Below, one piece after another: positions 20,553 to 64,000 of a DNA stretch of 64,000 nucleotides. The translations under genes and the position numbers were made by a program. The DNA is from SAR92 clade bacterium (GTDB taxonomy: Bacteria; Pseudomonadota; Gammaproteobacteria; Pseudomonadales; Porticoccaceae), in assembly GCA_014381985.1 (NCBI GenBank), contig JACNKP010000070.1, forward strand, positions 21,873 through 85,872, written 5' to 3'. Within the stretch, counting starts at the first letter, position 1. Each line of letters begins with the position of its first letter. The notes under the pieces are model-generated. The model ran no database searches, was not told the DNA's origin, and saw only the letters and a program-made list of their open reading frames with translations.

Positions 20553-21188
20553 TCATCGAGCACCGAGAAGGACTATAGTTTTTCCTGCAACAGTTATAAG
20601 ACCGTGGTTTTCAAGTTGTTTTATCACTCGTCCGGCCATTTCACGCGAACAAACCGCAATGCGGCCAATTTCCTGGCGCGTGATCTTAATTTGCATCCCG
20701 TCTGGGTGAGTCATGGCATCAGGTTGCTTTGCAAGATCTTTAAGTACCTGAGTAATACGGCCAGTGACACTTAAGAACGCTAAATCACTTGCTTTTTGGG
20801 TCGTTTCCCTAAGTCTCTTAGCAACCTGCTGGGCCACCGAAAATAAAATGTCAGGTTCTTTTTGATAAAGCGCCCTGAACTTTGAGTAGCTAATTTCACA
20901 GACTTCACAGTCAGTTTTAGTTTTAACCCAAGCACTACGAGGGTGCTCTTCAAAAAGGCCCATCTCTCCAAAAAATTGACCTGGATTGAGGTAGGTGACT
21001 ATCATATCTTTTTCGTCATTTCCATCTTCCACTAAGACGCTAACAGTTCCTTTAACGAGATAATAGAGGATATCTGCTTTGTCACCGGCATAGATAATCG
21101 TACTTTTTGCTGGATAACGTCTTCTATGAAAGTTAGATAGAAATAACTTTTCGCTATTAACGGCAATTGGCAGCACTGACATAGTCAT
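20553..21188 (-). CDS. crp: cAMP receptor protein (Crp/Vfr type)
   Basis: A 211-residue CRP-family activator. The cyclic-nucleotide domain carries [16 protein letters not shown] (phosphate-binding Gly-Glu and Arg-Ser) and the C-helix [12 protein letters not shown]. The helix-turn-helix [19 protein letters not shown] keeps the base-contacting Arg, Glu and Arg of E. coli CRP, so a TGTGA-type site is expected. [23 protein letters not shown] is nearly identical to E. coli CRP. The ATG at 21188 follows TAGGA. It converges on trpC and lies downstream of the small transcription units at 21.36-21.88 kb. Confidence 0.95.
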
Positions 21189-21363
21189 GATAGTTCCTAA
21201 ATTATAGATCTATGGTGGTACCAGCAAATTTATCGCTTCCACCATTGCCTCAGTAGCAGTGAATAGTAACTCTTTATTATGCGCTTGTGTATATATATCC
21301 AAAAAAGAAACAATGGGGGGTGCGATTTAAAAGCAATGGCTAAAAAAAGGTTAAAAAAAGGTT
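21189..21363 (-). promoter_or_regulatory. crp upstream region
   Basis: This 175-base gap must contain the crp promoter. I see no confident -35/-10 pair. At its far end, 21341-21371, three tandem copies of a TTAAAAAAAGG-type unit run into the terminator hairpin of the adjacent small unit. Read on the minus strand these are three successive T7-8 tracts just after the hairpin. Confidence 0.4.
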
Positions 21364-21390
21364 AAAAAAAAGGGACCTTAGGAGGTCCCT
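21364..21390 (-). terminator. Rho-independent terminator of small unit B
   Basis: On the minus strand, arms AGGGACCT and AGGTCCCT with a 4-base loop are followed by T8. A second, smaller hairpin (AATCCT / AGGATT, 21396-21413) comes just before it. Both hairpins recur in the same order at 21731-21774. Confidence 0.9.
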
Positions 21391-21484
21391 ATAAAAATCC
21401 TATAGCAAGGATTAAGAGGGGTTTGGTTCAAGCTGAATTTGGTTGTACTATTTTTAGAGCCACTAAGTGGGCTGGTTCTTCTTA

Positions 21485-21595
21485 TTACTTATTTTTTACT
21501 TCGGGTGCTTTCAATTTAGCGAAGTCATCTTTCGCAATTGCAGCTCCTGCTAGTCCAGTGAAGCCTATTAGCAAATACACGAGCGTCATTTCCAT
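21485..21595 (-). CDS. 36-residue exported or single-span membrane peptide
   Basis: A short gene missed by length cut-offs. It has an ATG at 21595 with AAGGA four bases upstream, then 36 codons and TAA. Residues 4-21 are hydrophobic (TLVYLLIGFTGLAGAAIA) and the rest is charged (KDDFAKLKAPEVKNK). The hydrophobic part ends in AIA-K, so either signal-peptidase cleavage releasing a 15-residue peptide or a single N-terminal membrane span is possible. A promoter (TTGCAT, 17 bases, TATAGT) lies 42 bases upstream and a terminator downstream, so it is a complete transcription unit. I recognise no family. Confidence 0.6.
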   Translation of the reverse strand: MEMTLVYLLIGFTGLAGAAIAKDDFAKLKAPEVKNK

Positions 21596-21636
21596 TTTCC
21601 TTGATTATTTGAGAGCGTCATTGCTCCAATGCATGC

Positions 21637-21665
21637 ACTATATTGCTCGAGAGGTCATGATGCAA
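21637..21665 (-). promoter_or_regulatory. sigma70-type promoter of unit B
   Basis: On the minus strand the -35 box is TTGCAT (21665-21660), followed by a 17-base spacer and the -10 box TATAGT (21642-21637). The -35 box falls inside the 47-base repeated element, at exactly the position of the unit A -35 box. Confidence 0.6.
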
Positions 21666-21702
21666 ATGCATTGTATGCATCAACTATATGCAAAAATGGT
21701 AT
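21656..21702 (-). repeat. upstream element copy B (47 bases)
   Basis: It aligns without gaps to 21904-21950, with 37 of 47 bases identical. The core is GCATATAGTT-ATGCA-CAATGCATTTG. It contains a TGCAT-N7-ATGCA dyad (plus strand), compatible with the T-N11-A rule of LysR-type regulators. Confidence 0.75.
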
Positions 21703-21723
21703 GACCTTGCGAAAATTTAAAAT

Positions 21724-21752
21724 AAAAAAAAGGGACCTTAGAAAGGTCCCTT
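21724..21752 (-). terminator. Rho-independent terminator of small unit A
   Basis: On the minus strand, arms AAGGGACCTT and AAGGTCCCTT with a 3-base loop are followed by at least seven T residues. The stem sequence is the same as in unit B while the loop differs. The preceding hairpin AATCCTG/CAGGATT is at 21758-21774. Confidence 0.9.
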
Positions 21753-21878
21753 TGAAAAATCCTGTAGCAGGATTAAGAGGGGTAATGGTCGCGAACGAAT
21801 TTGGTCGTACCGTCTCAAGTTAAAGTCTAAACCTAGTTCTTATCTGTTGGATCTAGAAACTCTAATAACTACATCGAG
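21724..21878 (-). ncRNA. candidate small RNA, unit A
   Basis: About 155 bases between a predicted start near 21878 and a strong terminator. No credible reading frame begins inside it: the only early ATG is followed directly by TAG. A 19-codon GTG frame begins upstream of the predicted start, so it would not be transcribed. The 3' portion is homologous to unit B. It is divergent from the LysR gene. Target and function are unknown. Confidence 0.5.
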
Positions 21879-21884
21879 GTTGCT

Positions 21885-21913
21885 AATATAGTCGCTCACA
21901 ATGCATAATCCAA
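21885..21913 (-). promoter_or_regulatory. sigma70-type promoter of unit A
   Basis: On the minus strand the -35 box is TTGGAT (21913-21908), followed by a 17-base spacer and the -10 box TATATT (21890-21885). The geometry relative to the repeated element is identical to unit B. Confidence 0.6.
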
Positions 21914-21950
21914 ATGCATTGATTGCATGAACTATATGCGTTTTTGGTAT
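21904..21950 (-). repeat. upstream element copy A (47 bases)
   Basis: This copy ends 18 bases before the LysR start codon and covers the unit A -35 region. It contains TGCAT-N7-ATGCG on the plus strand, matching the dyad of copy B. It is a likely binding site for the adjacent LysR protein, which would then regulate itself as well (inference). Confidence 0.75.
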
Positions 21951-21968
21951 ACCTGTTAAGAGGCTCAG

Positions 21969-22925
21969 ATGAACTTACAAAAGCTTTCCCGACTTGACTT
22001 GAATCTATTGGTTTCACTACAGGCTCTGCTTGAAGAGAAAAGTGTTACACGCGCCGCAGCGCGCCTATTTATTAGTCAGCCAGCTATGAGTCGCGTGCTG
22101 CAGCGATTGCGTTATCAACTTGACGATCCGCTGTTCACGCGAACCGGCAATGAGCTGGTCCCGACCCCAAAAGCAAGGGATCTGCAGCAACGGTTACCAA
22201 GATTACTCGATGGGATTCTGGATATGGTTAGTGAGGGTGAATTTGACCCCACAACTTATGTTGGTGAGATTACCATTGCTGTACCCGAATTTGTCGCTAT
22301 CTCTTTGATATCACAATTAACTAAAGTGATTACTCAATATGCGCCAGGATTAATCTTATCTATCTCAAGTGAAACTGACTCGGTGGAAGGTGAGCTAGCA
22401 GAAGGAGTCTTAGACTTTGCGATCGATATTGAAAAGACGATGACAGGCGATATCACCACAACACCATTGGCTATTTTTACCCCATCAATTTGGATGCGTG
22501 AAGGCCACCCTTTAGCCCATAAAGAAACAGTCACACTGACCGAAATTCTTGAATATCCGTTTATTCAATATTATCTGCTAATCTCCAAGAGGGTCAGCGC
22601 AAGAACTGATGCTCGATTTGATCGAGCGCTTCGAGAGTTAGGCCTCAAACGCAAAAAGACTTTAGTGACTAATCAGTTGATGACAGCAATGGAAACCGTA
22701 TGTGACACCGATTGCCTCATGGTTGCGGCTAAGTACGGCGAGACTATGGAGCGAGAAATGCATCGCATTATTCGTAAGCGATACCCGGCGGATATTCCCC
22801 ACGAAGGTAAAATAAAATTAGTCTTACTTCAGCATAAGCGCACTTCTGGTTCGCCAATTCATCAGTGGCTTTCTGAGAGGATAGTGGGATTGATTCAAGA
22901 GAGAGAGACAATCATCGACGTCTAA
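21969..22925 (+). CDS. LysR-family transcriptional regulator
   Basis: A 318-residue LysR-type regulator. The N-terminal helix-turn-helix is LEEKSVTRAAARLFISQPAMSRVLQRLR (about residues 18-45, split around Ser36), followed by DDPLFTR and a type 2 periplasmic-binding domain from about residue 95. It belongs to the NodD/LeuO-like branch by its MNLQKLSRLDLNLLVSLQAL start. The effector is unknown. The ATG follows AGAGG with a 7-base gap. It is divergent from two small transcription units sharing an upstream element, one copy of which abuts this gene. They are the most likely targets. Confidence 0.88.
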   Translation: MNLQKLSRLDLNLLVSLQALLEEKSVTRAAARLFISQPAMSRVLQRLRYQLDDPLFTRTGNELVPTPKARDLQQRLPRLLDGILDMVSEGEFDPTTYVGEITIAVPEFVAISLISQLTKVITQYAPGLILSISSETDSVEGELAEGVLDFAIDIEKTMTGDITTTPLAIFTPSIWMREGHPLAHKETVTLTEILEYPFIQYYLLISKRVSARTDARFDRALRELGLKRKKTLVTNQLMTAMETVCDTDCLMVAAKYGETMEREMHRIIRKRYPADIPHEGKIKLVLLQHKRTSGSPIHQWLSERIVGLIQERETIIDV

Positions 22926-45231: not shown

Positions 45232-45404
45232 TGAAACCCCAGGGTGCCGCTGCCAACGTGGCCTTGAACCGAAGAGTTCAAGTTGGCGACTCTAGCAACA
45301 CATCAGGCTTTCCGACGCACGGAATTGCACAACAATGCTGACAAAAAGAAGCCGGATAATAATTATCGGCTCAGGGACTTCTTGGCTGGCAAACACCCCA
45401 GGAA
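45232..45404 (-). ncRNA. ssrS: 6S RNA
   Basis: It lies between zapA and the folate cyclo-ligase gene, the conserved ssrS site. The minus strand contains AGTCCCTGAGCCGATA, close to E. coli 6S, then GTCGGAAAGCCTG and the terminal-loop stem TTGAACTCTTCGGTTCAAGG. The two ends (CCTGGGGTG and CACCCTGGGG) pair to close the long hairpin that mimics an open promoter and traps sigma70 RNA polymerase. The ends are placed from the promoter and this stem and are approximate by a few bases. Confidence 0.92.
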
Positions 45405-45409
45405 ACAGC

Positions 45410-63424: not shown

Positions 63425-64000
<576 letters not shown>

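Follow-up and report, generated by a model that had tools for sequence, protein, structure and literature searches.

Two tandem minus-strand units that lie divergent from a LysR-type regulator gene in a SAR92 clade bacterium, and that are conserved in related genomes, probably make sister Hfq-dependent small RNAs with one C-rich seed; the second unit also carries a reading frame under selection, which encodes a predicted membrane microprotein of 34 residues. The window analysed is the whole 64,000-nucleotide stretch of contig JACNKP010000070.1. The two units, A and B, lie between crp (20553-21188, minus strand) and the LysR gene (21969-22925, plus strand) and follow a common plan, consisting of a 47-base upstream element, a promoter with a 17 bp spacer, a body, the seed ACCCCTCTTAATCC, a small hairpin and a terminator with a U8 tail. 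Both units are likely to be small-RNA genes. We read A and B as a LysR-controlled pair of sibling small RNAs and B as a dual-function RNA; RNA and microprotein are likely to be controlled together by the one regulator. The features are listed below, with the evidence in parentheses; R1 denotes a covariance model of the 3' end.

20553..21188, minus strand: crp, downstream neighbour outside the system (NCBIfam NF008732, 311.9 bits, cut-off 266)
21364..21630, minus strand: unit B, predicted dual-function RNA of about 267 nt with 5' stem, ORF, seed, hairpin and terminator (R1, 87.7 bits)
21364..21390, minus strand: unit B terminator hairpin and U8 tail (fold)
21396..21413, minus strand: unit B hairpin 1 (fold)
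21409..21422, minus strand: unit B seed ACCCCTCTTAATCC (exact match to the unit A seed)
21485..21589, minus strand: unit B ORF of 34 residues, MTLVYLLIGFTGLAGAAIAKDDFAKLKAPEVKNK, predicted single membrane helix (pN/pS, hydropathy)
21602-21596, minus strand: unit B Shine-Dalgarno sequence AAGGAAA (sequence)
21612..21627, minus strand: unit B possible small 5' stem GGAGC-AAUGAC-GCUCU (leader comparison)
21637..21665, minus strand: unit B predicted promoter TTGCAT-17-TATAGT, with -35 TTGCAT at 21665-21660, 17 bases, and -10 TATAGT at 21642-21637 (read from sequence)
21656..21702, minus strand: unit B upstream element (match to the unit A element; genome pattern search)
21724..21878, minus strand: unit A, predicted non-coding small RNA of about 155 nt (no conserved ORF; R1, 83.9 bits, the window being among the sequences used to build R1)
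21724..21753, minus strand: unit A terminator hairpin and U8 tail, with a U-rich linker before it (fold)
21758..21774, minus strand: unit A hairpin 1, AAUCCUG-CUA-CAGGAUU (fold)
21770..21783, minus strand: unit A seed ACCCCTCTTAATCC (same in unit B; ACCCCUCUU unpaired in the fold)
21885..21913, minus strand: unit A predicted promoter TTGGAT-17-TATATT, with -35 TTGGAT at 21913-21908, 17 bases, and -10 TATATT at 21890-21885 (read from sequence; start predicted, not mapped)
21904..21950, minus strand: unit A upstream element, proposed LysR site (37/47 identity with the unit B element)
21969..22925, plus strand: LysR-type regulator of 318 aa, divergent from unit A (Pfam HTH_1 and LysR_substrate; relatives L002-L045)

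Elsewhere in the window, 6S RNA was located at 45232-45407 on the minus strand (RF00013, 89 bits), and 63425-64000 on the plus strand holds the first part of a 16S rRNA gene. PADLOC found nothing.

The best ungapped 47-base match between the two units pairs 21950-21904 with 21702-21656 at 37 of 47 positions, against a best of 26 and a mean of 23 in 60 mononucleotide shuffles. The element contains GCAT/ATGC half-sites spaced 10-13 bp apart and the inverted repeat ATGCA-n5-TGCAT, the centre of which lies about 43 bp before the predicted starts; in unit A, 40 of the 47 positions are invariant across five close loci. Within the genome the element pattern occurs exactly at A and B only, with no matches at one or two mismatches and 21 at three; the reversed pattern, used as a control, gave six matches. 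From this unique occurrence and the conservation we infer that the LysR protein binds ATGCA-n5-TGCAT, and through the element it would switch both unit promoters and its own gene. The protein has HTH_1 and LysR_substrate domains above the Pfam cut-off (63.2 and 55.7 bits); 44 NCBIfam models match it, and among the 25 matches listed all are under cut-off, the best being BsrA at 120.4 versus 480 bits. The Shine-Dalgarno sequence of the LysR gene, TTAAGAGG (21955-21971), is complementary to the seed of the divergent RNAs, a property shared by only some relatives.

Promoter-like sites are present at the same offset in A and B, and both units end in terminator hairpins with U8, as seen in sequence and fold. 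Each 3' end folds into two successive hairpins, with z scores of -4.23 for the last 83 nt of unit A and -2.38 for the last 82 nt of unit B. Taken whole, the RNA of unit A is a little more stable than its shuffles (z = -2.15), that of unit B no more so (z = -0.20). The features described in the sequence-only reading, among them the 37/47 element, promoters at one offset and two hairpins at each 3' end, were all recovered at their places, and ACCCCTCTTAATCC is exact in both units. In the predicted folds ACCCCUCUU is unpaired in both window units and the CCCC of the seed is unpaired in all seven 3' ends folded, the UCUU part being paired in both folded units of locus L010. The U-rich linker and terminator of unit A resemble the Hfq-binding 3' module, and Hfq is encoded in the genome (PF17209, E = 2.8e-29). 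Comparison of the LysR-crp interval across five close loci, as had been proposed, showed 14/14 seed positions and 14/14 hairpin-1/linker positions of unit A to be invariant, versus 48/96 in the body.

The AAUCC/GGAUU pairs of hairpin 1 show no variation in 38 distinct rows of the alignment A1, from which R1 was built; because hairpin 1 never varies, covariation is uninformative there. In the terminator, two-sided changes were found in three of six pairs, a number reached by 11 of 500 shuffles. Since the A1 rows were chosen by a seed-like pattern, seed invariance inside A1 is not evidence, and the counts over 74 units given below were used instead, though these too depend on A1 through R1. In the leader of unit B a stem of the GAGC/GCUC type or a variant (GGGC/GCCC, AAAGC/GCUUU) scores best in 25/29 cases, a different stem outscoring the GAGC/GCUC type in the window, L021, L025 and L030. 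Unit A, which had been said to lack a credible frame, indeed has no conserved one among 17 A-type transcripts: frames of at least nine codons differ from locus to locus, with a TTG frame common to the window and L002 and a shorter piece of it in L004.

Related loci were located via the LysR protein and not via the RNA. A scan of genome contigs with this protein kept 80 loci, of which 44 (L002-L045) were used, the others being distant. These belong to Porticoccaceae, SAR92, Porticoccus or Cellvibrionales/Pseudomonadales records with LysR identities of 51-98%, the closest being L002 at 98%. Some loci are cut; a trpC match is present in 42/44 and a crp match in 37/44, and the closeness of crp is partly incidental. 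An OsmC-like gene (PF02566) lies between the units and crp at L010:1906-2325, and similar stretches were seen by eye elsewhere in the clade.

R1 gave 85 matches in 47 sources; after removal of six elsewhere in the loci and five on the opposite strand, 74 units at related LysR loci remained, 40 of which have the exact 14-mer seed. The 14-mer is found at least once in 32 of the 35 SAR92-side loci (L002-L034, L045 and the window); the copy in L015 is changed, and L033 and L045 gave no unit. In the Porticoccus units (L035-L044), which are mostly weak R1 matches, the stretch is C-rich but differs from the seed. A locus has between one and three units; in L031, L032 and L034 seed, hairpin and terminator are present but there is no peptide. 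L005 has a third unit, with two coding copies after the non-coding one, parts of which are N-masked. In one genome of the same genus R1 has an extra match outside the LysR locus (L129, G053:C49), where the C-rich stretch is altered.

The covariance-model search from the 3' ends that had been suggested found R1 in 65 of 112 family genomes, comprising 48/50 of the genus, three of g2, 11 of g14 and three of g10; the genome and locus counts are not independent because some genomes are the same records as loci. The g10 matches (L128, L133 and L134) were discarded, being by eye plain terminators without the C-rich seed. At the order level at least 11 of 390 genomes matched, all but one inside the family; only 11 candidates were scored per listed genome, and weak members may be missed. 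The one match outside the family (G469, L279) was set aside: by eye its sequence does not differ from that of L124, and it could come from a stray contig. In the window's genome the search for further copies gave two other R1 matches only, both weak (contig C38, E = 1.06; C70, E = 4.03). The C38 match has no ACCCCUCUU-like stretch ahead of its hairpin, and a one-mismatch seed match on C74 falls, on inspection by eye, where a reading frame starts; both were rejected. From genus g14, 14 stretches were taken, some of which end at contig ends, and a LysR orthologue is present in L125 only. By eye, g14 units L119, L121, L126, L127, L132 and L135 have differing short hydrophobic frames (MEIVYGAMIFSCVLL-like or MEITTGAMIFTCVLL-like), and L137 has a putative coding frame of this short hydrophobic kind, MLLTHIILGFTGLAGAAIAKDEMSKL.

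Related loci keep the units, so the interval is not an unconserved spacer, and the conservation of A and B across these loci means that they are not a recent neutral duplication. The comparative data support the earlier proposal that a regulated small-RNA/small-protein locus has been duplicated beside a LysR regulator of its own: element, seed, hairpins and peptide are conserved, and within this genome the proposed LysR box is unique to the two units. The sequence-only reading overlooked the start codon of the peptide, the unequal decay of the seed between clades and the dispersed copies in a sister genus.

The conserved start of the unit B frame is the second ATG, at 21589, the close relatives L002-L004 being without the upstream ATG; the product of the frame reported earlier has 34 residues and not 36. 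Over 378 pairs from 29 loci including the window (28 distinct sequences; L005 excluded, its frames being masked), pN/pS is 0.21, which shows the frame to be under protein-level selection, and of 29 codons, 11 vary at the first, five at the second and 27 at the third position. The peptides, of 34-40 residues, are of the type MTLVY...GF.G..GAAIAKD.F.K..AP, with one starting MTLMY. Residues 3-19 have a hydropathy of 2.07, from which a single membrane helix is predicted. When a 40-residue member was searched against the database, 20 relatives were returned, none with a Pfam domain. Synonymous codon identity is 0.68-1.00 at codons 15-20, 23, 26 and 27 versus 0.25-0.58 at codons 7-14. This pattern at 21503-21547 (codons 15-29) might point to an additional constraint within the reading frame.

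Seed and peptide are divided differently between the copies in different loci. Where the non-coding unit adjoins LysR (the window, L002-L005 and L022-L030) it has the exact seed in 14/14. The coding units of these loci keep the seed in the window, L002-L004, one of two copies in L005, L024 and L027, and are without it in the other L005 copy, L022, L023, L028 and L029; those of L025, L026 and L030 gave no R1 match. Where the coding unit adjoins LysR (L006-L021) it has the exact seed in 15/16, and the non-coding unit has it in 0/16, the stretch being C-rich but altered, often ACCCCUCUUUGUG-like. The five architectures need four changes on the LysR tree, the minimum possible. This opposite retention of the seed in two clades is likely to reflect subfunctionalisation after duplication, in which seed and peptide would be shared out differently between the copies by clade. 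On a broader view, one that we hold with even confidence for and against, a modular small-RNA chassis (LysR-box promoter, anti-Shine-Dalgarno seed and Hfq-type terminator) duplicates and carries exchangeable membrane microproteins; it would be a dual-function RNA splitting its jobs between sisters, the outcome being opposite in two clades, and a sister genus has scattered copies.

Target messages are likely to be recognised through the C-rich seed common to both units, which is predicted to mask Shine-Dalgarno sequences. The RNAs would pair via CCCCUCUU with the G-rich Shine-Dalgarno regions (AGAGGGG/AGGGG) of uptake genes, among which TonB receptors are the best candidates, and pairing would block their translation; the microprotein would become part of the inner membrane and influence the same physiology at the protein level. 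In 14 genomes the complement AAGAGGGG was found 3-13 bases before an ATG 115 times versus 49 for the reversed pattern, part of the excess being ordinary Shine-Dalgarno enrichment. Recurrent genes include two TonB-receptor families, an MFS transporter, an O/P porin, an aldehyde dehydrogenase, a penicillin-amidase-like gene, a LysR gene and others; some matches are by eye false starts, for example inside a ribosomal protein gene. The porin was rejected as a target: among eight matches, the genome of the query itself and a single close orthologue are the only ones with AAGAGGGG, which a 69% identical orthologue lacks.

The two TonB-receptor families, P0021 and P0022, were chosen from seed-complement matches. 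For P0021, 26 loci were taken (two truncated), and GAGGGG lies near the start in 16 of the 24 orthologues with an assigned start, which are not independent, over backgrounds of 1/57 and 2/175 ORFs. For P0022, AAGAGGGG is present in 3/3 genomes holding the family, out of 48, these being the same three that picked it. The window's genome has no close orthologue of either family. In that genome GGGG is found at the starts of 5/10 TonB receptors (10 of 19 examined) versus 5/67 other ORFs (p = 0.002), and in the close relative G026 at 6/10. The pairing energy at TonB receptors is not seed-specific, shuffled seeds matching the shift in 154/200 cases, and pairing of the 16S tail is also shifted there (p = 0.012); TonB receptors are for this reason candidates and not results.

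Three other explanations were weighed. The units could be mainly LysR-controlled microprotein genes, in which case A would be a decayed copy and the 3' end would be conserved only as an efficient terminator. The clear selection on the peptide and the variation from one to three units per locus would fit this, and any terminator looks like a hairpin with a U-run. A decayed copy, however, accounts poorly for a unit A whose seed and hairpin 1 are invariant over a half-variable body, for LysR-adjoining non-coding units that keep the exact 14-mer in every one of 14 loci where the B copy has often lost it, or for the three loci with the RNA and no peptide, and we consider this explanation unlikely. 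Alternatively, an A-type RNA might mainly target the LysR message itself in a negative feedback loop. With pairing energies computed in all loci with the window's seed, TTAAGAGG gives -12.5 kcal/mol, exceeded at only three of 56 other ORF starts in the window, and energies of -11.6 or stronger recur in L002, L003, L005, L022, L028 and L029; in the remaining SAR92-side loci, most of which have the exact seed, the value is nevertheless -9.1 or weaker, which makes feedback as the main role quite improbable.

A small hydrophobic peptide next to a small RNA also calls to mind a type I toxin-antitoxin system, with B the toxin and A its RNA antitoxin. The sequence common to the two units, however, has the same sense in both; with the terminators removed, A pairs with B no better than shuffles do (185/200 as good), and pairing of the seed with the start of B is poor (-4.9). 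Peptide and locus are moreover inherited with LysR, and both units have the proposed LysR box. With no excess complementarity of A to B, this very improbable alternative was rejected. The reading of A and B as sister small RNAs, the second also coding, is the one that we retain.

Rfam gave no match at E up to 1 in 21300-22000, and neither RNA nor peptide is matched by any Rfam, Pfam or NCBIfam model. Parallels exist among LysR-small RNA pairs, dual-function RNAs and sibling small RNAs. GcvA/GcvB likewise combine a LysR-type gene, a divergent small RNA and inverted-repeat sites between them; the sites of GcvA, 15-bp repeats of the form ATTAG-n5-CTAAT, are centred at -65 and -43, and ATGCA-n5-TGCAT at about -43 from the predicted start resembles GcvA IR2 (PMC5002191). 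GcvB regulates uptake genes (PMC3658693). Unlike that system, the present RNAs have no Rfam match at E up to 1, the LysR protein reaches 31.6 bits with the GcvA model against a cut-off of 288, and there are two tandem units, one of them coding. OxyR/OxyS similarly place a LysR-type regulator and a small RNA across a shared intergenic region with several sites (PMC5002191), but Rfam again gives no match here, and among the matches listed the LysR protein scores 28.5 bits on the OxyR model (cut-off 500). VcdRP of Vibrio cholerae, a C-rich dual-function RNA, combines a 29-residue protein with a base-pairing site that, together with Hfq, represses PTS uptake mRNAs and for this requires its run of four cytosines; it is repressed by CRP, whereas here there are a LysR regulator and a sister non-coding unit (PMC8672173). 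NgncR_162/163 of Neisseria gonorrhoeae are two related small RNAs that cover ribosome-binding sites of metabolic mRNAs; they resemble A and B as a sibling pair, but no coding copy is mentioned in the available text of that source (PMC9973317). In the open-licence literature, no paper was found on SAR92 small RNA or on the present RNA family.

SAR92-clade bacteria are common heterotrophs of the coastal ocean. If the proposed explanation is true, the locus offers a natural series in which to follow the partition of RNA and protein roles once a dual-function RNA has been duplicated, and it tests how one LysR switch would tune nutrient uptake via both an RNA and a membrane microprotein.
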